From Formivibrio citricus (GTDB lineage Bacteria; Pseudomonadota; Gammaproteobacteria; Burkholderiales; Chitinibacteraceae): a stretch of 64,000 bases of DNA. Shown here piece by piece: positions 8,286-19,374 of the stretch (within the stretch, counting starts at the first letter, position 1; each line of letters begins with the position of its first letter). A program made the position numbers and the translations under genes. Under the pieces are notes generated by a model, which searched no databases, was not told where the DNA came from, and saw only the letters and a list, made by a program, of their open reading frames with translations. The stretch covers positions 1 to 64,000 of the forward strand of contig NZ_FOVE01000018.1 in assembly GCF_900115065.1 (NCBI RefSeq), given 5' to 3'.

Positions 8286-9275
8286 ATGAATCTGGGGCAA
8301 AAACCCGTGTCGGCCGAGTTTGTCAGAACGCTTCTCGCAACAGAAATGCAGGCTGTGGACGGCCTGATCCGCAGCAGCCTGCACTCCACCGTACCGCTGG
8401 TCGATCAGATCGCCGAGTACATCATCAGCGCCGGCGGCAAACGCCTGCGCCCGCAAGTGGTCCTGCTTTCCGCTCTCGCGCTGGGCTACCGCGGCAACCA
8501 GCACCGTGAGCTGGCAGCCGTGATCGAATTCATCCATACCGCCACACTGCTGCACGACGACGTCGTCGACGAATCGGAATTGCGCCGCGGCCGCAAAACT
8601 GCCAACGCCCTGTTCGGCAACGCCGCAAGCGTGCTGGTCGGCGACTTCCTCTACAGCCGCGCCTTCCAGATGATGGCCGCCTGCAACTCGATGCGCGTCA
8701 TGCAGGCGCTGGCCGACGCCACCAACGTCATCGCCGAGGGCGAAGTCCTGCAGCTGATGAACATCGGCAATACCGACATCGATGAAGCGGGCTACCTCAA
8801 GGTCATCCGCTACAAAACCGCCAAGCTGTTCGAAGCCGCTGCCCGCCTGGGCGCCATCCTGTGCGATGCGCCACAGGAAACGGAAACCGGCCTGGCCAAT
8901 TACGGCTTGCACCTTGGCGCTGCCTTCCAGATCATCGACGATGTTCTCGACTACAACGGCAACATCGACGAAACAGGAAAAAACGTCGGCGACGACCTGG
9001 CGGAAGGCAAAGCCACCCTGCCGCTGATTCACGTCATGCGCGAAGGAACGCCGGAACAGGCCGCCGTGGTTCGCGCCGCACTGGAGCAGGCCGACCGCTC
9101 GCTTCTGCCTCAGGTTCTTGCTGCTGTCGGCCAATCGGGGGCCTTGGACTACGCGCGAGGGGTTGCCCGCGGCGAGGCGGCGCTGGCCATCCGCAGCCTG
9201 GAGAGCCTGCCCGACTCCCCGTTCAGCCAAGCGCTGCGCGCCTTGCCAGAACTGGCAATCAAGCGCACCGGTTAG
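8286..9275 (+). CDS. ispB: Octaprenyl/polyprenyl diphosphate synthase
   Basis: A 329-residue trans-polyprenyl diphosphate synthase that makes the long side chain of ubiquinone from farnesyl-PP and IPP. Both aspartate-rich motifs are present, LLHDDVVDE (first) and IIDDVLDY (second), with GGKRLRP near the N-terminus. It is divergent from rplU, the normal beta/gammaproteobacterial arrangement. No strong Shine-Dalgarno is seen before the ATG; a second in-frame ATG about 20 codons in is possible but would remove conserved N-terminal sequence. Confidence 0.95.
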   Translation: MNLGQKPVSAEFVRTLLATEMQAVDGLIRSSLHSTVPLVDQIAEYIISAGGKRLRPQVVLLSALALGYRGNQHRELAAVIEFIHTATLLHDDVVDESELRRGRKTANALFGNAASVLVGDFLYSRAFQMMAACNSMRVMQALADATNVIAEGEVLQLMNIGNTDIDEAGYLKVIRYKTAKLFEAAARLGAILCDAPQETETGLANYGLHLGAAFQIIDDVLDYNGNIDETGKNVGDDLAEGKATLPLIHVMREGTPEQAAVVRAALEQADRSLLPQVLAAVGQSGALDYARGVARGEAALAIRSLESLPDSPFSQALRALPELAIKRTG

Positions 9276-9322: not shown

Positions 9323-9399
9323 CGGGGTGTAGCTTAGCCTGGTAGAGCGCTACGTTCGGGACGTAGAGGCCGGAGGTTCGAATCCTCTCACCCCGACCA
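9323..9399 (+). tRNA. tRNA-Pro (anticodon CGG)
   Basis: A 77-base cloverleaf. The acceptor stem is CGGGGTG/CACCCCG, the anticodon arm is CTACG-TTCGGGA-CGTAG with CGG at positions 34-36, the T loop is TTCGAAT, and the CCA end is encoded. It reads the CCG proline codon. Confidence 0.97.
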
Positions 9400-9471: not shown

Positions 9472-11049
9472 TTACGGCCCCGCCAGAAGGTCGAGTTCAC
9501 GCCGGAGCGCGGGATAATCCGTTTTGGCATTGTGGCGCCGGTCTACCGGAATACGTGACAGGATCACAATCCGGTCAATGCCGGCCCATGACAGGGTTTT
9601 CTCCAACGGCCCCGGCTCCACCCCCTGCTTCAGCTCCAGCACCAAAAGCCGTTTGCCTCGATGGCTGACGAATGCCGCGCGGGCGATATCGGGATCATTG
9701 GCCAATGCCGCCTCGACACTGAGCGGATAGAGGGTCTGTTCGCCCTCACCGAGGCGGGCACTACAACGCCCCGTCAGCCACAAGCGCCCGGCCTCGTCGA
9801 GCCAGCCGGAATCACCGGTGCGGTGCCAAATCTTGTTCCCGATCCGGAATTTGGTTTCCATATCGCCCAGCCCCCCCAGATAGCCTTGCGAAACGTGTGG
9901 GCCGCTCACGACAACTTCGCCGATCTTCCCCGCGGGCAAAACAAGTGTGGCCATGTCTGTTTCGGAAAACGGCCCCAACGGTTGTCCCCACCTGTCTTGC
10001 AGGATCGCCAGTCCAATCTCCTGAAGTGGCTGGCCGGCTGGCAGTCCTGCGCCTTGGGCAATCGCTCGACGGTCTGTTTCGCAAATTTCGTCGAGATGGA
10101 TCAACGCAATGGGTTCTGCCTCGGTCGAGCCATAGAGCGCGGCCACGCGGGCCTGCGGGGCAATTTGCGCCGCTTTCTGCATGACAGGCAGGAATACTGG
10201 CGCACCACCCATGAAGATGACCTGCAAGGAATCCAGTGTCTGGTGGCCAGACAAGCAATGCTCGGCCAGTCTTTCGACCAATGCCGGCGAAGCCAGCAGG
10301 CTTTCCGCCTTCCAGTGGCGGATGACGGAGGCAATGTGCGCCGGGTCCAGCGCGGCCGGATGGCGCAGGTCGCCTTCCGGGATCAGGCTGGTGACGCCAT
10401 GAGCCAGGTTGGCCATGACCAACGCGGGCATGGTCGCCAGATTGATGTTGCCGGGGCGCAGCGCCAAATGGCGGATCAGGATTTGCTGGGTTTCCAGCAG
10501 CAGGCGGTGGCTGCGCAACAGCCCCTTGGGGGCGCCGGTGCTGCCGCTGGTGAACGTGAGCATCGCCGGTTCATCTTCCAGCCCGCTCTCGGCGTGGGCG
10601 ATGGGCGGCAAACTGCCGGCATGCTCAAGAGAAATCGCTCCAGGAAACCAGCCCTGCGCGACAAACACGGTCTTGATGGTGCGCAGCGTTGGCTGCAGCC
10701 AGCGGAACAGGCAGGCTTTTGGGGTGCCCACCAATGCTTTCAGCGGCAATACCCCGCGGCAACGTTCGAGTTGCGCGGCCGCCTGTTCCGGATCAATAAA
10801 AACCGGAACGGCTCCCAACCGGAGCGCGGCAGCGATAACGGCATACAATTCTGCCGACATGGGGATGAGAATCACGACACCATCGCCACGCCCGATCCCG
10901 GCTTGGGCAAACAAGGTGGCGATTTGCGCGGAGTGGCCGCACAAATCGGCAAACGAGGTGATGTGTTCAGCGCCCAAACGTCCGTCGATGATCGCGGCTG
11001 CGTCGGGAGTGCGTTGGGCGGCCTCATCGAGCAGCGAGACAAGATTCAC
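9472..11049 (-). CDS. AMP-forming acyl ligase (OleC/fatty acyl-CoA ligase type)
   Basis: A 525-residue adenylate-forming enzyme. The ATP-binding P-loop LTFTSGSTGAPKG is at 164-176, the A5 motif YGSTEAEP near 300, the A7 motif HRTGDSGW near 420, and a C-terminal DRRHNAK with the likely catalytic lysine near 511. The DRRHNAK-type ending resembles OleC-like beta-lactone synthetases and related fatty-acyl ligases, so the substrate is probably a fatty or hydroxy acid. It is the last gene of the HMG-CoA-reductase operon. Its GTG start overlaps the GNAT stop by 4 bases (GTGA). No oleA, oleB or oleD is nearby, so olefin synthesis itself is not supported. Confidence 0.8.
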   Translation of the reverse strand: MNLVSLLDEAAQRTPDAAAIIDGRLGAEHITSFADLCGHSAQIATLFAQAGIGRGDGVVILIPMSAELYAVIAAALRLGAVPVFIDPEQAAAQLERCRGVLPLKALVGTPKACLFRWLQPTLRTIKTVFVAQGWFPGAISLEHAGSLPPIAHAESGLEDEPAMLTFTSGSTGAPKGLLRSHRLLLETQQILIRHLALRPGNINLATMPALVMANLAHGVTSLIPEGDLRHPAALDPAHIASVIRHWKAESLLASPALVERLAEHCLSGHQTLDSLQVIFMGGAPVFLPVMQKAAQIAPQARVAALYGSTEAEPIALIHLDEICETDRRAIAQGAGLPAGQPLQEIGLAILQDRWGQPLGPFSETDMATLVLPAGKIGEVVVSGPHVSQGYLGGLGDMETKFRIGNKIWHRTGDSGWLDEAGRLWLTGRCSARLGEGEQTLYPLSVEAALANDPDIARAAFVSHRGKRLLVLELKQGVEPGPLEKTLSWAGIDRIVILSRIPVDRRHNAKTDYPALRRELDLLAGP

Positions 11050-12029
11050 AGGTGCCTCGCATACAGCGCATAGCGGCGAAAATCGCGCATCAGGCCACGA
11101 TTGATCTGGCGCGACGGGTTGTCCTCATGCATCAGGGCATGGATGGTGCGCCGCATACCCTGGCTCTGCGCGATGCGATTGATCCGCGCCAGCATCACCG
11201 CGGCCAAGCCCTTGCCACGATGCGCCTCCAGCGTCGCCAGGCTTTTGATGATGACCGTATCCACGGGCTGGCCACGTTGCGCCTGCAACAGATTGGGCAG
11301 CGCCATGCAGAAGCCCACCGGTGTGCCTTGCCATTCGGCGATCTGGATCAATTCCGGGCGGATCCGGGATAAAAGCGGGGCATACATTCCCAGAAATTCC
11401 GCTTTGCCAATCGGGCTGTAAAGAAAATTGTCCTTGAAGCTTTCACAGGAAAGCTGCCAAAGCCGATCCAGTTCAGCATCGATTTCGCCATTTGCAAATG
11501 CGCGGAAAACATACCCTTCCTGCTCAAGCCGCATCTGCAAGGCGCTGCAATCCTGGCAACGGGCGTTGTCTTCGCTGATCGAGGAGTAATAATGGGCCAG
11601 CGGCTGAAAACCTGCGGACTCGAAATACTGCGGCCAGTCATCCGGGTTATCCGGCTCAAGCAGGAAAGGCGGCTCATCGCCACGCTCAGTCAGCAGCCGA
11701 TAGCGGCGCCAAGTGCTGCCATCCATGGGGCCGACAGCAAGGCTGCAACCGCATTCCGCCAGCACGCGGCAGGCTTCTTCCAGAAGCGCCGATCCGGCAA
11801 TACTGTCTTGCGCGGCATAATGCCCGACCAGCCCCAAGCGCTCGGAACCGTGTTCGGGCACTTGGCACCACCATACCGAGGCTCGCGCTCGCAATCCGCC
11901 TTGTTCCTGGCACATCAACAGGCGGTCCGGCGCATGCAGCCGCACGCTGGCAGGAGTCAGTTCCGACAGCCCCTTCAGACTGCAAAACAGTTCGAGATCG
12001 GCCTGCTCAGGAGAAAAAATAGCCATCAT
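11046..12029 (-). CDS. GNAT-family acyltransferase-like protein
   Basis: A 327-residue protein with a C-terminal GNAT acetyltransferase fold. The acyl-CoA pyrophosphate-binding region (SLATLEAHRGKGLAAVMLAR, about 265-284) is clear, and the N-terminal half shows a second, degenerate GNAT-like segment with GPMDGSTW. The start is placed at the ATG that overlaps the upstream stop (ATGATGG); the next codon is also ATG. It could N- or O-acylate a lipid or amino-acid headgroup made by the operon, but the substrate cannot be read from sequence. Confidence 0.72.
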   Translation of the reverse strand: MMAIFSPEQADLELFCSLKGLSELTPASVRLHAPDRLLMCQEQGGLRARASVWWCQVPEHGSERLGLVGHYAAQDSIAGSALLEEACRVLAECGCSLAVGPMDGSTWRRYRLLTERGDEPPFLLEPDNPDDWPQYFESAGFQPLAHYYSSISEDNARCQDCSALQMRLEQEGYVFRAFANGEIDAELDRLWQLSCESFKDNFLYSPIGKAEFLGMYAPLLSRIRPELIQIAEWQGTPVGFCMALPNLLQAQRGQPVDTVIIKSLATLEAHRGKGLAAVMLARINRIAQSQGMRRTIHALMHEDNPSRQINRGLMRDFRRYALYARHL

Positions 12030-13387
12030 GATGCCCCTCCTGTTATCGGGATGAGGGCCGGCGCAAAAGCCAGCAATGAACACAGTGTGGTGATGAGGGC
12101 CTGACGCAGCCAGCGGACACCGTCCACCGGATACAGCTCAATATTCGGCTGAAGAAGCGCGAACAGGATCGTGGAAGCCACCACCGCCAGCGTCGCAGCA
12201 GCAAGGCTGCCCAATGCCGCCAAGGTCACCCCCTGAAACAGCAAAATGGACGGCACCAGAAGCAAAGCGCCCTTGAGGCAACTCCAGGCCATGCTGGCCT
12301 GCATCGGGGATTGCGGCCGCGCATTGCGCTGGCGCACCAGCGCAATGATGGCCAAATCCGAGCCGTAAATGGCGGCATAGGCGGCGAAAATCATGGGGTT
12401 CTGGTAATGCCAGAACAGCAGCAGCCAGATGATGCTGCCAAACAGATTCGCCAGCGCTACCGGAAAATTCAAGCGCCGCACGAGATTCACCGGCGTATAG
12501 CGCGTGACGCTGGTATAGACGGTGATCAGGATGAGCGCGGGCACCACCCATTGCCACCCGGCAATGGCCCAGGCGACATAGCCCCACAGGGAAACGCCGA
12601 ACAGGCCGTCGTCGGCCAAGGTAGTTCGTTTGCGCCAGAAGCGGATGAACAGCGACAAACCGATCAGAAACCCCAGATGCAGGAGCAACTCCGGCGCATC
12701 CAGATTCCGGAACGAACGCAGCAGAACGTAGCTGAACAACGGGATGATCAGGTTATCCAGCCCCCACCAAGCCGCCGCTTCGGCCATCATGACCATGAGC
12801 CCGATATTGACGCCGATCAGCAGGCACGCCAGGCGAGGCGTATCGGTAAACAGCAGCACCGGCACATGCACGCAGAAAAAGGCTGCCACAAAAAACGCCA
12901 GCGAGCCCTCTATGCTCTTGCGCCCCCCGCTCACGCTGTAGAACAACTTGCCATATTCCTTGCCAATCAACGCGGCAAAGGCATCGGCAACCGCCAGAAC
13001 CAGCAACGGCACGCCGTAGAGCAAGGGGGTATGGCGGGCCAGAAAGAACAGCAGCAACAAACTCAGGATGAAGCAGAATTCACCGACCGTATTGCGCTGC
13101 ACCGCGGCCAGCACCTGCCCGGGGCCGTCCCTCAGAATGGGCACGGTCCGCAACAGGGAGAACAAAACAATATTGGCGCCTCCCAGAATCATGACCGGAA
13201 CCAGATCGGAAAACAGCCAGGGAAGCGGAAGGGCAAGCAAGCCTCCACCCAGGTGAAACATCTTGCGAACCAGTTCCGGATGCGGATTGAACCGCACCTG
13301 CCAGGTACGCAAGGCAGCGAACATCAACAGGACGCCGGCCAGCATGGCGGGAATCGCAAACCATGGATCAAGGTTAACGGCCGTCAT
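12026..13387 (-). CDS. Polytopic membrane protein: dolichol/phytol-kinase-like domain with DUF92-like C-terminal half
   Basis: A 453-residue protein with roughly twelve hydrophobic segments. The N-terminal half has features of CTP-dependent prenol kinases (SEC59/VTE5 family): RKMFHLGGG at 41-49, ADAFAALIGKEYGK at 134-147 and GGRKSIEGS at 154-162. The second half (from about 258, TTLADDGLFG onward) recalls DUF92 proteins, the family of the phytyl-phosphate kinase VTE6. If both halves are active, one protein could convert a prenol to its diphosphate, supplying the UbiA enzyme of the same operon. The first-half assignment is reasonably supported; the DUF92 resemblance is tentative. Start and stop both overlap neighbours by 4 bases. 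Confidence 0.65.
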   Translation of the reverse strand: MTAVNLDPWFAIPAMLAGVLLMFAALRTWQVRFNPHPELVRKMFHLGGGLLALPLPWLFSDLVPVMILGGANIVLFSLLRTVPILRDGPGQVLAAVQRNTVGEFCFILSLLLLFFLARHTPLLYGVPLLVLAVADAFAALIGKEYGKLFYSVSGGRKSIEGSLAFFVAAFFCVHVPVLLFTDTPRLACLLIGVNIGLMVMMAEAAAWWGLDNLIIPLFSYVLLRSFRNLDAPELLLHLGFLIGLSLFIRFWRKRTTLADDGLFGVSLWGYVAWAIAGWQWVVPALILITVYTSVTRYTPVNLVRRLNFPVALANLFGSIIWLLLFWHYQNPMIFAAYAAIYGSDLAIIALVRQRNARPQSPMQASMAWSCLKGALLLVPSILLFQGVTLAALGSLAAATLAVVASTILFALLQPNIELYPVDGVRWLRQALITTLCSLLAFAPALIPITGGAS

Positions 13388-14487
13388 GACAAGGCCTCGA
13401 CATGCAGTGTGCGATAGAACGCAGCCCGGTTTTGCGCGAGCAATTCCGCGGCAAGGCCGTCAAGCGGACGAAACCGCTGGCGCAGGCATTCCGGCGCGGT
13501 GCGCGGCACCATCATGTTCCAGTAGGCCAGACGCCCTCCGCTTCGCCCGGCGCGTGCGATTTGTGCGAAAGCGGCTTCAGTTGCAGACGAAGACAAGTAT
13601 TCGAAAATGTCCGAGAGATTGAAGCGATCGATGCTGGCTTCTCCTAGCTCGGCAACCGTGGATTCCAGCGAGGCCACGCGCCATTCCAGTTTGTCGAGCT
13701 GGCTGCGGATCAGTTCGAAATTCTCCGGTCGCAAGGCATGCGGCAGCGCATCGGTGTAGCGGCCGAACACGACCCATTGAAAGTAGGGATTCTGCACCGG
13801 GTCGAGGTCGGTCAGGGCATGCCTGATCCGCTCCATCGTTTCCCCGGCGAGATCGCCCTGCGCGTAGCGGAAAAATTCCGGATCCCGCCCCAGCCGGCCC
13901 ATGACCGGGCGGGAGAGAAAGACGCGCAACAGCCAGCGCCACCGCCGGTTGGCCCACACGTCGCGATAAAACTGCTCCCGCGCGGCTTGGCTCCTGGGCT
14001 GAAACAGGGCGGCGATTTCGCTGGGGCTGTGGATCAACGGCAGCACGTAGCGACGAAACAGGGCGAAATAGCGTTCGAACTTGCCCGCCGAGCCGATCCC
14101 CGCTGCGATAACGGCTGGACGCCGATCCCAGAACTCGCAAGTTTGCGGCCCGAGCTGCGGGCGCAGGGCCTGATAGAGCCGCAGACGGCGCTCGCTTGGG
14201 AGCGCGCCAATCAATTCCAGTAACTCCGGATGATCGAGCTGGCGAAACGCAGCGCACTTGAGCTCCACGCAGGCAATCTGTGCCGGGGAAAGATCAACCG
14301 CAACGACCCGCGCAGGCCGGCACGTGAGCAGCGACAGGCTGTTTTCACCACCCGAGGCAATCGACAGACAGACATCACCCGGTTGCACGTCGAGCGCGGC
14401 CAGCAACACATCCGCATCTTCCCAGCACATCGCGTAGCGGATGATGGACAAGTCCACTCTTTCGGTTTCGCTGCGCACCGTACTCAT
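13384..14487 (-). CDS. BtaA-like (DUF3419) SAM-dependent 3-amino-3-carboxypropyl transferase
   Basis: A 367-residue DUF3419 protein. The SAM-binding motif SIASGGENSLSLL (42-54) and VVAVDLSPAQ (61-70) match BtaA of Rhodobacter, which moves the 3-amino-3-carboxypropyl group of SAM to diacylglycerol in betaine-lipid synthesis. The N-terminal RYAMCWEDADVLL is also characteristic. BtaB, the N-methyltransferase that completes betaine lipid, is not in the window. The product here may therefore be an unmethylated homoserine ether or a different acceptor. The ATG at 14487 is chosen because it overlaps the upstream stop (ATGA); the open frame extends further upstream only as out-of-family sequence. Confidence 0.82.
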   Translation of the reverse strand: MSTVRSETERVDLSIIRYAMCWEDADVLLAALDVQPGDVCLSIASGGENSLSLLTCRPARVVAVDLSPAQIACVELKCAAFRQLDHPELLELIGALPSERRLRLYQALRPQLGPQTCEFWDRRPAVIAAGIGSAGKFERYFALFRRYVLPLIHSPSEIAALFQPRSQAAREQFYRDVWANRRWRWLLRVFLSRPVMGRLGRDPEFFRYAQGDLAGETMERIRHALTDLDPVQNPYFQWVVFGRYTDALPHALRPENFELIRSQLDKLEWRVASLESTVAELGEASIDRFNLSDIFEYLSSSATEAAFAQIARAGRSGGRLAYWNMMVPRTAPECLRQRFRPLDGLAAELLAQNRAAFYRTLHVEALS

Positions 14488-17162
14488 GGCCCACCCTCCG
14501 GAGCGGGAATGCGCACCACCGTACCCCGGCTGCCATCCATCTCGACCCAGTCGCCATCCCGCAACCAGCGGGTCACGCCGGGAATGGCAACAATGGTAGG
14601 CAGCCCGAGCTCGCGGGCGACAATGGCGGAATGGGAAAGCAGGCTGCCCCGCTCCACGAGCAGGCCGGACGCGGAGGGGAAGACCATCACCCAGCCCGGA
14701 TCGGTTCGTTCGGCAACGATGATCTCGCCAAGCTTGACCGTGGACTGGCGCGGATCGCGAATCACGCGCACCGGGCCGCGCACGATCCCCGGACAGCAAC
14801 CGGTTCCGCTGCAACGATCACCTTCCGGCAAGACGGCCGCCTGCTGTTCCGGACTGAAGCTGTGACCACGATAGAGAATGCCGCGGGTTTCGAAGCGCTC
14901 GGACGGGGCGGCCGCTTGCGCATGGGCATCGAATTCGCGCTGCCGCACGGCCACCAATCCGGCCAGATCGGCGGTGGTGGCGCGCCCTTCGACAAAGCCG
15001 AGCAATTCGTCCCATTCCAGGTAGAACACATCCCGGGCTTGCGCGAGACAGCCAAGCGCAGCCAACCGCTTGCCGAGCTCCACGGTAATCATGCGCGCCC
15101 GGCCGAATACCCGCGTGCGCTCGAAACGCAGGTTTTCCCGTGTTCGCACCCGCAAGCGGGTATGGGCAAGCACCCAATTGAAAACCAGACGGCGCAACGG
15201 ATGTCCGGCCAAGGCGGCATTGACCTGCGCTTCGGCCTGTTGGCGCAAGCCTGTTTCGACGTCTGGCGCGGCTGTCGGCCGCCCCGCCTGAATGCCGAGA
15301 GCATACTGGCCAATTGAGCGCAGCAGCGGCGAGGGATCGTCATGCAGGGTCGGGCTTTCAAGCTTGAGTTCTTCCATGCAGCGCTCGCCAAAGCGCGCCA
15401 GGTAACCATCCAATTCACGCGCGAATTCCGGGTATTTCGCGACCACTGAAGGCAAAGCACCACTAGCCTCGCTCAGGGTTTCGACCAGTCCAGGCTCTGT
15501 TGCAGCCATTTCCGCCATGCGCCGAACCAGCCGCGCGGGCTCGGCGCTGATCATGGCCTGATCTGCGCAGAGCAGGTTGTTCTGCAATGTGCCAGTCGTA
15601 TCGCCCACCCAGCTGCTGACCAGACGACGCAACACGCCGTAAAAAATCATCGTGGCAAAGTCGTTGATGATCGGGGCGTCCCAGTGCGTCAGAAGTTGCT
15701 GCTCCAGACGCCGGCAATAGGCGACCAGCTCGTCCGGGCGCAGGCGCGAGAGATCGGGCCGCTCATGACCCAGCGCCGACTCCAGTCGCAGATAAAACCG
15801 CTGGATGCGACCCCCGAGCCCGGCATAGGCCAACAGCAAGTTCAATAAAGCCCCGGCCAAGCGCAAGGCATCGACCAGGCGGTTACCCTGCTCGGCCTTG
15901 GCTACCTCGGCAGCCAATTCATCGCCCAGACTTTCGCGCACGCCCATCATCTGTTCCATGAAACGGCGATTGAAGCGGTAACCGGGCAGGATGGCGACCA
16001 GGCGGTACCAGTTGAACAGGTTGTAGTACACCCGCCCGCGGATCAGCCCCAGCATGCAACCGAACATGTCGCTGCGTTCCTCGATCCGGGATTGCGGCAC
16101 CCCCATCAGGCGACAGAATTCACGGTAGACGTATTCGTAAGCGCGGCGAGCAAAAGAAAAGGTCAGCGGCGTGGTCATGCCGCTATAACTCTCGATGATG
16201 TTCGAGTTGTCCCAGATCGCGCGTCGGCCGTCCGGATCGGGAAGCTGCTCCAGCCCGGTAATCGGCCGGCTCTGCAGCAGGTATAGCCGTTCGCCGTCCA
16301 TGGTCCACTCGATATCCTGTGGCCGGCCGAAGTGGCGTTCGGCAGCCATGGCGAGGCGGGCGACCTGCAAGATCCCCGCATCCTCAAGACAAGGCTCGCG
16401 CGCCTGGCTGGCAGGTAACGACACGCGGCGGAAGCCGGCCGGATCGCTTGCATCGGCTTGCTGGATGATGTCCTTGGCTGCGATTGCGCGCTCAATAATG
16501 GTATCGCCAGCGCCTACCCGCCACGTGTCGCCCGTGGCCTCACCGGAAACCAGCGCATTGCCCAAGCCTGGCAGGGCCCCGACCACGACCACACCGCGTC
16601 GGCCGCTGACCGGGTCGGCACTGAACGCCACGCCGGAAACCTCTCCCGTCACCATGCGCTGCACCAGCACGGCCGGCACATCGGGCAAGGCCGTCAATCC
16701 GGCTTGCCGGCGGTAGGCAACGATGCGCTCGCTGAACCCCGAGCGCCACACGGCGACAACCTGTTCGGCAACGGATTCGGCGTCAACATTGATGAAGCTT
16801 TCCAGTTGTCCTGCAAAGGAATGCGCCGCGCTGTCTTCTTCCTGCGCGGAGGAACGTACCGCGAACCGGGCATTCGCGCCCCCCAGCAGGGCGCATGCCT
16901 GATCGATCGCATCGCGTACTTCGTCCGAAAATGTGAATGCAGCCAAAACCGTCCGCATTGTTTCTGCAGTGGGGACGCTCGCCAGGGTTTCGGCCTGTTC
17001 GACAGAGAGGCAGGATTTGAAGCTGTGCGGCAATACTGCGAACCAGTCCGGAATCGGCAACCCGGCCCGCATCAGCTCGGCCAGTGCGCGCCCCTTGCCG
17101 CCGAGCGGGGTATCGACCTGCACTTGTACAGGCCACAGCACACATGTTTTGCCGGTTGTCAC
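14484..17162 (-). CDS. PEP synthase-like / rifampicin phosphotransferase-like dikinase
   Basis: An 892-residue three-part dikinase. The N-terminal ATP-grasp module (about 1-320) contains GGKGRALAELMRAGLPIP, AVRSSAQEED and VLVQRMV. A long helical middle follows, then a C-terminal phosphohistidine swivel with the histidine in SLLSHSAIVAREL (about His844). The length and order fit the rifampicin-phosphotransferase/PEP-synthase-like group, which lacks the PEP-binding TIM barrel of true PpsA. It probably phosphorylates a small molecule or lipid intermediate through phosphohistidine; antibiotic modification is not suggested by context. The GTG at 17162, 11 bases after the ubiA-like stop, is chosen because the conserved N-terminus begins there and an AAAGGG ribosome site precedes it. 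Confidence 0.78.
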   Translation of the reverse strand: MTTGKTCVLWPVQVQVDTPLGGKGRALAELMRAGLPIPDWFAVLPHSFKSCLSVEQAETLASVPTAETMRTVLAAFTFSDEVRDAIDQACALLGGANARFAVRSSAQEEDSAAHSFAGQLESFINVDAESVAEQVVAVWRSGFSERIVAYRRQAGLTALPDVPAVLVQRMVTGEVSGVAFSADPVSGRRGVVVVGALPGLGNALVSGEATGDTWRVGAGDTIIERAIAAKDIIQQADASDPAGFRRVSLPASQAREPCLEDAGILQVARLAMAAERHFGRPQDIEWTMDGERLYLLQSRPITGLEQLPDPDGRRAIWDNSNIIESYSGMTTPLTFSFARRAYEYVYREFCRLMGVPQSRIEERSDMFGCMLGLIRGRVYYNLFNWYRLVAILPGYRFNRRFMEQMMGVRESLGDELAAEVAKAEQGNRLVDALRLAGALLNLLLAYAGLGGRIQRFYLRLESALGHERPDLSRLRPDELVAYCRRLEQQLLTHWDAPIINDFATMIFYGVLRRLVSSWVGDTTGTLQNNLLCADQAMISAEPARLVRRMAEMAATEPGLVETLSEASGALPSVVAKYPEFARELDGYLARFGERCMEELKLESPTLHDDPSPLLRSIGQYALGIQAGRPTAAPDVETGLRQQAEAQVNAALAGHPLRRLVFNWVLAHTRLRVRTRENLRFERTRVFGRARMITVELGKRLAALGCLAQARDVFYLEWDELLGFVEGRATTADLAGLVAVRQREFDAHAQAAAPSERFETRGILYRGHSFSPEQQAAVLPEGDRCSGTGCCPGIVRGPVRVIRDPRQSTVKLGEIIVAERTDPGWVMVFPSASGLLVERGSLLSHSAIVARELGLPTIVAIPGVTRWLRDGDWVEMDGSRGTVVRIPAPEGGP

Positions 17163-17173
17163 GTACCGCCCTT

Positions 17174-18103
17174 TCAGTAGAAAGACCCCAAGCCCAGGCC
17201 CAGAAACAGGATCAGCGTCCACAGCCCGGAGAGGCGATTGAAACGTGTGCCGCCCCCCTGCCCCGAACTGCGCAAAAATGCGACTGCGCCCAACATGGCA
17301 AACAGCAGCACCGCTCCCAACAAGGTGGCGACGAATGTTGCCGACTGGATGCGCAAAGCAGCGAGCACGGCAAACGCGCTGCCCGTGATCATGAAGCCCA
17401 GCCATGCGGCCAGCGCCCGGTGCGCGCCCCAGAGGGCCGTGTAGGTTTCTACGCCTTCTTCTTCGTCAACCGGCGCACGGATCTTGCGCCCCACCTCGAT
17501 CACACAGAACGCGAAATAGCTCGCGGCCAGCAGGCCGGCCAGATCTGGCATCTTCATCCCCTGAGGCAGCCAGTGGCAAGCGGCAACATAGGTGGCAATC
17601 ATCGGCACGATGAGGATGTGACTCAGCATGTAGACCAGCGGATGGGCCTTGAGCCAGTCGCGGATAAAAAATTCCACCCCCATCAGCCCGGAATAAAGCC
17701 AAACGGCCAGCAACCCCGCCAACAAGCGCGCATCCAGCAGCAGGGCTACGCCCACCTGTACGGCAGCCGCCATGAACCACAGGCGGCGCAACGAAGCCAG
17801 CGAGATCAGCCCGCGCGGAACGGGGCGGTAGGGGCGCCAGCGGGCGTCTTCTTCGAAATCCTTGAATTCGTCGAGAATGCGCAACTGCAAGATCATCAGA
17901 AAGGCGGTAACGAAGGCGACGACAAAAACCATTGCGCCCGGCTTTTGGGCAGGCATCGCCACCCTAGCGGCATAGCTCAAGACTCCGAAACAAAAGGCTG
18001 CGATCAAGAGGCCATGCTGCAGCGGCGGAAAACGCTCGGAGAAATACGTGTGCCAGCGCCAGAAAAAACCATCCGGATTGGCGGGTGTCGTGGCAGGCTT
18101 CAT
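17174..18103 (-). CDS. UbiA-superfamily prenyltransferase
   Basis: A 309-residue integral membrane protein with eight or nine hydrophobic helices. The first Asp-rich motif is DEFKDFEED, followed by RPYRPVPRG. The second conserved region reads GRKIRAPVDEEEGVETY, typical of a non-UbiA-proper branch of the superfamily. Such enzymes attach a prenyl diphosphate to an aromatic or glycerol-type acceptor in the membrane. It is coupled to the HMG-CoA reductase by an ATGA overlap. The canonical ubiA of ubiquinone synthesis is not expected in this setting, so this is likely a specialised paralogue. Confidence 0.85.
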   Translation of the reverse strand: MKPATTPANPDGFFWRWHTYFSERFPPLQHGLLIAAFCFGVLSYAARVAMPAQKPGAMVFVVAFVTAFLMILQLRILDEFKDFEEDARWRPYRPVPRGLISLASLRRLWFMAAAVQVGVALLLDARLLAGLLAVWLYSGLMGVEFFIRDWLKAHPLVYMLSHILIVPMIATYVAACHWLPQGMKMPDLAGLLAASYFAFCVIEVGRKIRAPVDEEEGVETYTALWGAHRALAAWLGFMITGSAFAVLAALRIQSATFVATLLGAVLLFAMLGAVAFLRSSGQGGGTRFNRLSGLWTLILFLGLGLGSFY

Positions 18104-19374
18104 GGCTGCTTGCCCCGGGCAAGCTTGGCATGGGCGCGCGTGAATTCACCGGCACAGATAGCGCCGATGATCGAGATCTCGCCTGCCAGACACAAACTCG
18201 CGGCGACTTCTGCCAGCGCCTGGGCATGACTTGGCCCCGCCAAACCGAGTATTTCCAGACAGGCCCGCTGGCTGGGCAGGCTGGTGCCGCCCCCCACGCT
18301 ACCGACGATCAGGTTCGGCAGCGTGACCGCCACATACAGGGCCCCTTCCGGGGTCGCTTCCATCCGGGTCGTGCCAATCGCGGCCTCTGCCACGCAGGCC
18401 GCATCCTGGCCGCAGGCGATGAACAGCCCCGCCAGACCATTGGCAAAGTGCCCCTGAATACCCACAGTTCCCGACATGATCCCGCCCATTGTGGCAAGCC
18501 GCCCGTACTCGACCATGCGCTCGACCGAGGTGTGCAAGCCCTCGCGCACCAGTTCGGCCGGCAAAACCACTTCGGCCGTGACTTTCTTGCCGCGCACCCC
18601 TTGCAGCGATTGGGCGCTCGCTTTTTTGTCACCTGAGAAGTTGGCCTCGATAAAGGCCGAGAGAGGTTTGACCGGTGCCTGTTCCAGCACCCAGCGCATG
18701 GCCGCATCCGTCGCGATGGTGGCCATGTTTTGCCCGGAAGCATCGCCGGTGGAATAGCTCAGGATAAGGTAGAGGTGATTGCCTTCGACACTGACCTGCA
18801 AGTCGATCAATTTGCCGAAACGGGTGGTGCTTTCTGCGATGCGCTTGATGTCATCCTGACGGGAAAGCACCCAGCCCAGAAATTGCCCCAGTTCTTCAAA
18901 GCTGGTGAACGTGAATGCGGGGGCGCGCGAAACGCCTTCGTTGAGCAAGGCTGCCGTAGCACCGCCAGCCCTGGAAATCAGTATCGAGCCGCGATTGTAG
19001 GAGGCGACCAATGCCGCCTCGCTCGTTGCCAGCGGCACGTAAAAATCGCCCTGCGCATACAGGCCATTGACGCGCAGCGGGCCGGCAATGCCCACCGGCA
19101 GTTTGACGGTACCGATGAAATTTTCGATGTGCTGGAGATAGCGCCCGATCTGCTGCCTGGTGTGCGAATCGAGCAGTTCGGCGCACGTAGCCTCCGGCAG
19201 GCCAAGCACTTGCCAGCGGCGCTCCAGTACTTCTTGGGAAATGAGGGTTCCGCCGGGGATGTGGGGTGGCAGGCCGTCAGGCTTGGGCTTCAGGCGTTGC
19301 GCCCATTTCTCCATCCCGCCTTCTGTCAGCAGGGCGGCAAACCGCTCGGAAGCGTGACGGCTGCCAACGGTCAT
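18100..19374 (-). CDS. Hydroxymethylglutaryl-CoA reductase, class I-like
   Basis: A 424-residue HMG-CoA reductase. The ENxxG segment ENFIGTVKLPVGIAGPL is of class I type (archaeal/eukaryotic). All four catalytic residues are visible: Glu84, Lys250 in SGDKK, Asp324 in GQDAA and His415 in RAHAKL. The GTVGIQGHF and GSVGGGTSLPSQ regions are also conserved. The normal reaction is NADPH-dependent reduction of HMG-CoA to mevalonate. No other mevalonate-pathway gene is in the window, and the group normally uses the MEP pathway. The gene opens a seven-gene operon and has a clear ribosome site (AAAGGGAG). It may make mevalonate for a dedicated product or reduce a related acyl-CoA. Confidence 0.92.
   Translation of the reverse strand: MTVGSRHASERFAALLTEGGMEKWAQRLKPKPDGLPPHIPGGTLISQEVLERRWQVLGLPEATCAELLDSHTRQQIGRYLQHIENFIGTVKLPVGIAGPLRVNGLYAQGDFYVPLATSEAALVASYNRGSILISRAGGATAALLNEGVSRAPAFTFTSFEELGQFLGWVLSRQDDIKRIAESTTRFGKLIDLQVSVEGNHLYLILSYSTGDASGQNMATIATDAAMRWVLEQAPVKPLSAFIEANFSGDKKASAQSLQGVRGKKVTAEVVLPAELVREGLHTSVERMVEYGRLATMGGIMSGTVGIQGHFANGLAGLFIACGQDAACVAEAAIGTTRMEATPEGALYVAVTLPNLIVGSVGGGTSLPSQRACLEILGLAGPSHAQALAEVAASLCLAGEISIIGAICAGEFTRAHAKLARGKQP

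Follow-up and report, generated by a model that had tools for sequence, protein, structure and literature searches.

The closest described systems are the class I 3-hydroxy-3-methylglutaryl-CoA (HMG-CoA) reductases (HMGRs; human 1DQ8/2Q1L, Methanothermococcus 6HR7), BtaA-BtaB betaine-lipid synthesis, the rifampin phosphotransferase/PigC/RedH branch of dikinases, the superfamily of phytol kinase VTE5, dolichol kinase SEC59 and cytidine diphosphate diacylglycerol (CDP-DAG) synthetase, the acyl-AMP ligases OleC (a beta-lactone synthetase) and PRK09274, and the lone HMGR of Vibrio. We compared with these a seven-gene cassette of Formivibrio citricus, confirmed on the minus strand from 19374 to 9472 of a 64,000-nt window (the whole stretch of DNA analysed, positions 1 to 64,000 of contig NZ_FOVE01000018.1). 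Judging from the sequences, we estimate a probability of roughly 0.55 that the locus is a copy of a conserved, horizontally dispersed cassette whose enzymes would form one membrane pathway to an isoprenoid-containing amphiphile not previously described. We found no description of the cassette or its product in the open-access literature, subscription literature being outside the search.

Relatives of the cassette were collected by scanning one genome per species (~85,000 species) with a two-sequence UbiA alignment. The scan took 80 loci out of 101 relatives found, and the totals given here are lower bounds. Together with the window and a plasmid of the alphaproteobacterium Roseinatronobacter sp. 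S2 this gave 82 loci, whose gene content was determined by profile search for the seven families. The complete set was present in 59 of the 82 loci, and the order HMGR-UbiA-dikinase-DUF3419-kinase-GNAT-ligase was exact, without an extra copy, in 51. The preliminary description had taken the seven genes for one dedicated set, and this gene-neighbourhood check agrees with it, as the neighbours were indeed conserved together. Given 59 loci, the co-occurrence of the seven genes is far beyond chance, and the recurrence across the scanned species excludes a local curiosity of one genome. Following the record titles, full sets occur in seven phyla: Pseudomonadota, Verrucomicrobiota, Nitrospirota, Desulfobacterota (with Geobacter), Deinococcota, Bacteroidota and Fibrobacterota. 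Incomplete sets, in most cases cut off by the end of a contig, were seen in Planctomycetota, Elusimicrobiota, Bacillota, Armatimonadota, Cyanobacteriota and Kapaibacteria. Cultured carriers include Haloferula, Luteolibacter, Desulfobulbus rhabdoformis, Neomegalonema, Portibacter, Roseovarius, Ruegeria and Shimia. The Roseinatronobacter locus, first met by tblastn of plasmids as adjacent DUF3419 and UbiA relatives, holds the complete set, identically arranged, at 31-56% identity, with the HMGR gene spanning the record start.

Across loci, the seven genes are correlated in pairwise identity (Spearman 0.63-0.91), which would be expected of a cassette transferred or inherited as a whole. A possible start lies at most 20 bases from the upstream stop at 365 of 385 scored junctions, and a 4- or 1-base overlap is possible at 232; these counts accept any in-frame ATG or GTG and are thus upper bounds. 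Some complete loci are reshuffled. With H for HMGR, U for UbiA, P for the dikinase, D for DUF3419, K for the kinase-like protein, G for GNAT and A for the ligase, we found GAHUPDK in two Desulfobulbus loci, PDKGAHU in a Bacteroidetes bin and HDKPUGA in a Geobacteraceae bin. The Nitrospirae bin GWC2_56_14 carries two complete, diverged cassettes (L018, L027). Within the family of the host the cassette is rare and patchy (1 of 43 genomes), no HMGR being found in the other 42 genomes searched.

The window HMGR matches Pfam HMG-CoA_red (5.5e-108) and shares with class I enzymes the fold family and the catalytic residues. Glu84, Lys250, Asp324 and His415, already noted in the preliminary description, are invariant among cassette HMGRs, as is the equivalent of human Arg590. 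In contrast to class I enzymes, human Ser684 of the cis loop is replaced by Glu in 69 of 69 cassette HMGRs (Glu243 in the window, by alignment with the human and archaeal structures). Human Lys735, which salt-bridges the HMG carboxylate in the human structures, is replaced by Ser or Ala in the same 69 (Ala294 in the window), although this column is less certain than that of Ser684 owing to an adjoining one-residue deletion; near it, at position 292, Arg, Gln or Lys varies among cassette HMGRs. Ser684 is retained by the human, archaeal and Streptomyces mevalonate-cluster enzymes, and Lys735 by the human and archaeal ones. The window protein also falls below the cut-off of TIGR00533 (313 vs 442 bits), and no mevalonate genes surround it. 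A quick maximum-likelihood tree joins the cassette HMGRs and the lone Vibrio HMGR in a supported group and places the mevalonate-cluster enzymes of Streptomyces and the human and archaeal sequences outside it. The proposed phylogenetic check thus yielded a separate branch, while the outer part of the tree, with its long branches, is unsure.

Host metabolism was assessed by family searches in 27 cassette-carrying genomes. Dxr was present in 22 and HMG-CoA synthase absent in 26; mevalonate-diphosphate decarboxylase gave a strong match in three, two of these over the cut-off, and HMG-CoA lyase passed its curated cut-off in 11, with three more below it. Carriers thus make isopentenyl diphosphate mostly by the methylerythritol phosphate (MEP) route. 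The genome of F. citricus (3.07 Mb, 44 contigs, 99.5% completeness, a single HMGR), for which all genome-wide checks were family searches, contains Dxr and yielded no HMG-CoA synthase, mevalonate-diphosphate decarboxylase or HMG-CoA lyase over the cut-off. The canonical mevalonate pathway is therefore rejected for this host, in line with the expectation in the preliminary description that no other mevalonate gene is present and that the MEP pathway is used; a complete mevalonate pathway elsewhere in the genome did not turn up. Without HMG-CoA synthase and lyase, HMG-CoA is no obvious metabolite in F. citricus. As the HMG pocket is changed in all 69 proteins and the window genome has no detected source of HMG-CoA, mevalonate, which had been suggested as the product, is probably not what the window HMGR makes.

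The UbiA protein (Pfam 6.2e-10, 39.2 bits vs a cut-off of 34.2) has an invariant first Asp motif (D78/D82/D86) and reads E203-x-G-R-K at the second. The dikinase consists of an ATP domain and a phosphohistidine domain (Pfam PPDK_N and PEP-utilizers), with conserved ATP-binding residues and catalytic His844. No C-terminal barrel binding phosphoenolpyruvate (PEP) or pyruvate was matched by Pfam or NCBIfam. In its ATP-binding domain, His-bearing swivel domain and undetected barrel it is like the rifampin phosphotransferase/PigC/RedH branch, but it misses all NCBIfam cut-offs (best PRK06241.2-2, 784 vs 883 bits). The ligase (Pfam AMP-binding) keeps the adenylation motifs and catalytic Lys509. Its nearest NCBIfam models, PRK09274 and OleC, share these motifs and are matched below their cut-offs (OleC equivalog, 239 vs 900 bits), and unlike OleC it is encoded in a cassette without OleA, OleB or OleD. 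The GNAT (Pfam 39.3 bits) is modelled by AlphaFold (pLDDT 95) as a tandem GNAT (7q3a, Z 22.8, root-mean-square deviation 3.9, 285 residues), close to MAB_4324 and mycothiol synthase, and two cassette members match the N-myristoyltransferase model.

The DUF3419 protein has a clear Pfam match (6.8e-67, 226.7 bits vs a cut-off of 28.2) and shares with BtaA the domain and the WED and N49 positions. It differs from the BtaA-BtaB system in 33 cassette-invariant positions and in the absence of a BtaB methyltransferase from the seven genes; in Rhizobium the DUF3419 gene is followed by a methyltransferase gene, whereas the cassette gene is not. Of the homoserine-type headgroup addition proposed in the preliminary description, the transfer itself thus appears plausible from the BtaA-family domain, whereas the cassette proteins form a distinct DUF3419 group with only part of the conserved BtaA residues.

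The membrane kinase-like protein has all its invariants in the N-terminal half (RKxxH, DxxAxxxG, KSxEG, GxDN), a pattern which we take to be typical of phytol and dolichol kinases; the C-terminal half consists of ~225 residues of variable helices. In its N-terminal motif pattern it is comparable to VTE5, SEC59 and the CDP-DAG synthetase superfamily, its model matches CDP-DAG synthetase weakly, and it differs in lacking a Pfam match and in its extra C-terminal half. DUF92 was matched in 2 of 33 members (best 2.6e-4). The AlphaFold model is confident (pLDDT 92), and Foldseek returned no significant match for the protein.

The set is kept across phyla, its genes diverge in step, catalytic residues are retained and the hosts mostly use the MEP route, and it is on these grounds that we propose one pathway at the membrane. 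In it, the HMGR-fold enzyme would produce an alcohol by reducing a small acyl-CoA distinct from HMG-CoA, and this alcohol or a prenol would be phosphorylated by the ATP dikinase and the CTP-kinase-like membrane protein. UbiA would couple a prenyl group to an acceptor, and DUF3419 would transfer a 3-amino-3-carboxypropyl (homoserine-ether) group from S-adenosylmethionine. The AMP ligase may activate an acid, which the tandem GNAT would place on the new amine; the product could further be modified by a P450 and a sulfotransferase in some lineages. We infer both the product and the step order, and the best reading is a prenylated, aminocarboxypropylated, N-acylated amphiphile built on a small alcohol. 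That this represents a cross-phylum pathway for a new class of prenylated aminocarboxypropyl amphiphile, with the HMGR fold re-targeted to a non-HMG acyl-CoA in MEP bacteria, we suggest tentatively, at somewhat short of even odds.

The invariance of the catalytic tetrad and of the Arg590 equivalent would also suit a genuine HMG-CoA reductase. Mevalonate could then be activated by the AMP ligase and moved by the GNAT to an amine, for which fungal fusarinine-type siderophores provide an analogue, with UbiA adding the prenyl and DUF3419 the aminocarboxypropyl group. The HMG-CoA lyase found in 11 of 27 carriers would supply HMG-CoA from leucine breakdown there. However, the Ser684 and Lys735 substitutions in every cassette HMGR, the lack of HMG-CoA synthase and of a lyase over the cut-off in the window genome, and the existence of cassettes without HMGR make this route unlikely. 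An alternative membrane lipid made under stress or when phosphate is limiting, related to betaine lipids and carrying a prenyl or long-chain ether and an N-acylated homoserine-type headgroup, would explain why a BtaA-family DUF3419, UbiA and a membrane kinase share one operon, and why free-living bacteria of many phyla carry it. It is nevertheless improbable to a similar degree, as BtaB is missing, the DUF3419 residues on the acceptor side differ from btaA, and the patchy occurrence in the host family fits a specialised metabolite equally well. Such a metabolite, small, secreted and meroterpenoid-like or siderophore-like, would suit the patchiness, the plasmid location, the P450 and sulfotransferase tailoring genes and the resemblance of the ligase to OleC/PRK09274. 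Yet no constant transporter or regulator adjoins the cassette, and three of the seven proteins are integral to the membrane or, by family, act on lipid-like substrates, so that we regard a secreted compound as the least probable of these alternatives.

Several observations weigh against the membrane pathway to a prenylated amphiphile that we favour. We infer the substrates of all cassette enzymes from family membership, and many loci are metagenome bins. The window kinase-like protein had no Pfam match even at E 1, and the best VIA match of its model, CDP-DAG synthetase 4q2g (Z 8.3, root-mean-square deviation 5.9, 168 residues), falls short of what is considered reliable for helical proteins. 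When the cassette-invariant DUF3419 positions were compared with three btaA-type rhizobial proteins, 26 were shared, and the differing ones are mostly C-terminal. A polyprenyl synthase is not a constant neighbour across cassette loci. The lone Vibrio HMGR (55-60% identity) nests within the cassette HMGR clade and differs in having no cassette neighbours. Furthermore, L041, L028 and L054 hold the other six cassette genes without HMGR, L043, L061 and L064 hold partial sets of them, and no HMGR of any kind was found in these six genomes. These loci and the lone Vibrio relative mean that the HMGR need not serve only the cassette pathway. Some of these absences could be due to incomplete metagenome-assembled genomes, but this hardly applies to L041, a single-contig Burkholderiales chromosome of this kind that ranks with the nearest relatives of the window in five genes. 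No common replacement gene was seen upstream in the HMGR-less cassettes. HMGR is thus the usual but dispensable first gene, and the earlier view of a set built around it gives way to a core of six genes, UbiA-dikinase-DUF3419-kinase-GNAT-ligase.

A distinct branch of a well-known enzyme, with a changed substrate pocket, heads an operon in at least seven phyla, mostly in hosts without the mevalonate pathway, which cautions that HMGR alone is insufficient for annotating mevalonate synthesis. The cassette suggests a missed lipid or terpenoid pathway that is common enough for study in cultured strains, such as Roseovarius nubinhibens ISM, Ruegeria, Haloferula, Luteolibacter and Desulfobulbus rhabdoformis, and the gene set provides a context signature for tracing the product by comparative lipidomics.

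The coordinates of the seven genes are listed below. A re-check of the open reading frames bore out their number, strand and positions as first described, including five 4-base overlaps (ATGA/GTGA-type) and an 11-base gap between the UbiA stop and the dikinase GTG.

Table 1. Genes of the cassette in the F. citricus window, in order of transcription.
Predicted product	Coordinates	Strand	Length	Evidence
HMG-CoA-reductase-fold acyl-CoA reductase (putative), first gene	18100..19374	-	424 aa	Pfam, PDB alignment, conservation, tree
UbiA-family membrane prenyltransferase	17174..18103	-	309 aa	Pfam, conservation
PEP-synthase/rifampin-phosphotransferase-like dikinase	14484..17162	-	892 aa, GTG start at 17162	Pfam, NCBIfam, PDB, motifs
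DUF3419 (BtaA-like) candidate S-adenosylmethionine-dependent 3-amino-3-carboxypropyl transferase	13384..14487	-	367 aa	Pfam, comparison with btaA-btaB type proteins
Polytopic membrane kinase-like protein	12026..13387	-	453 aa	conservation, AlphaFold model, CDP-DAG synthetase match
Tandem-GNAT N-acyltransferase	11046..12029	-	327 aa	Pfam, AlphaFold model, fold search
Acyl-adenylating (AMP-forming) ligase	9472..11049	-	525 aa	Pfam, NCBIfam, motifs

A scan for promoters and terminators gave promoter-like sites at chance level and none upstream of the HMGR gene. A tRNA-Pro(CGG) at 9323-9399 directly abuts the 3' end of the operon. The polyprenyl synthase at 8286-9275 was rejected as an operon member; it lies on the opposite strand, adjoins obgE and resembles housekeeping ispB. 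Two congeners carry the tRNA-Pro on the opposite side of argH, with other genes intervening, which indicates that the region has been rearranged; their contigs stop just past argH. A recent insertion next to the tRNA-Pro was considered by way of an empty site, of which the congener layout gave no proof.

An adjacent P450 and Sulfotransfer_3 pair was found beside the cassette in 11 loci (L046, L049, L075, L080, L082-L084, L086, L087, L090, L091) from three lineages: Rhodobacteraceae, an Ectothiorhodospiraceae bin and a Verrucomicrobiota bin. The pair is divergent and upstream in most and downstream in L049. Its position lends independent support to one modified organic product with a sulfatable hydroxyl. 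ABC ATPases occur in 18 loci at varied distance and orientation, and a constant transporter was therefore rejected.

Lone HMGRs of other proteobacteria were considered as members of hidden cassettes and rejected, as no cassette genes adjoin them except for weak AMP-ligase matches. In eight genomes with the Vibrio-type lone HMGR we found neither DUF3419 nor cassette neighbours. These cassette-type lone enzymes of Vibrio and Photobacterium (L004, L005, L006, L132, L108-L116) have Asp or Glu at the Ser684 position. A Sinorhizobium plasmid HMGR (L008, 8423-13132), without the usual cis loop, lies within an acyl-CoA carboxylase gene group with indolepyruvate ferredoxin oxidoreductase. An Alteromonas plasmid (L007, 4265-11026; also L134) encodes a different lone HMGR, preceded upstream by T_hemolysin (PF12261), AMP-ligase, haem-oxygenase-like and SDR genes, possibly another HMGR-linked pathway in MEP bacteria. 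Finally, six Bacteroidota cassettes (L058, L059, L062, L069, L071, L079) carry a Polyketide_cyc2/SRPBCC-type gene between GNAT and ligase or close by.

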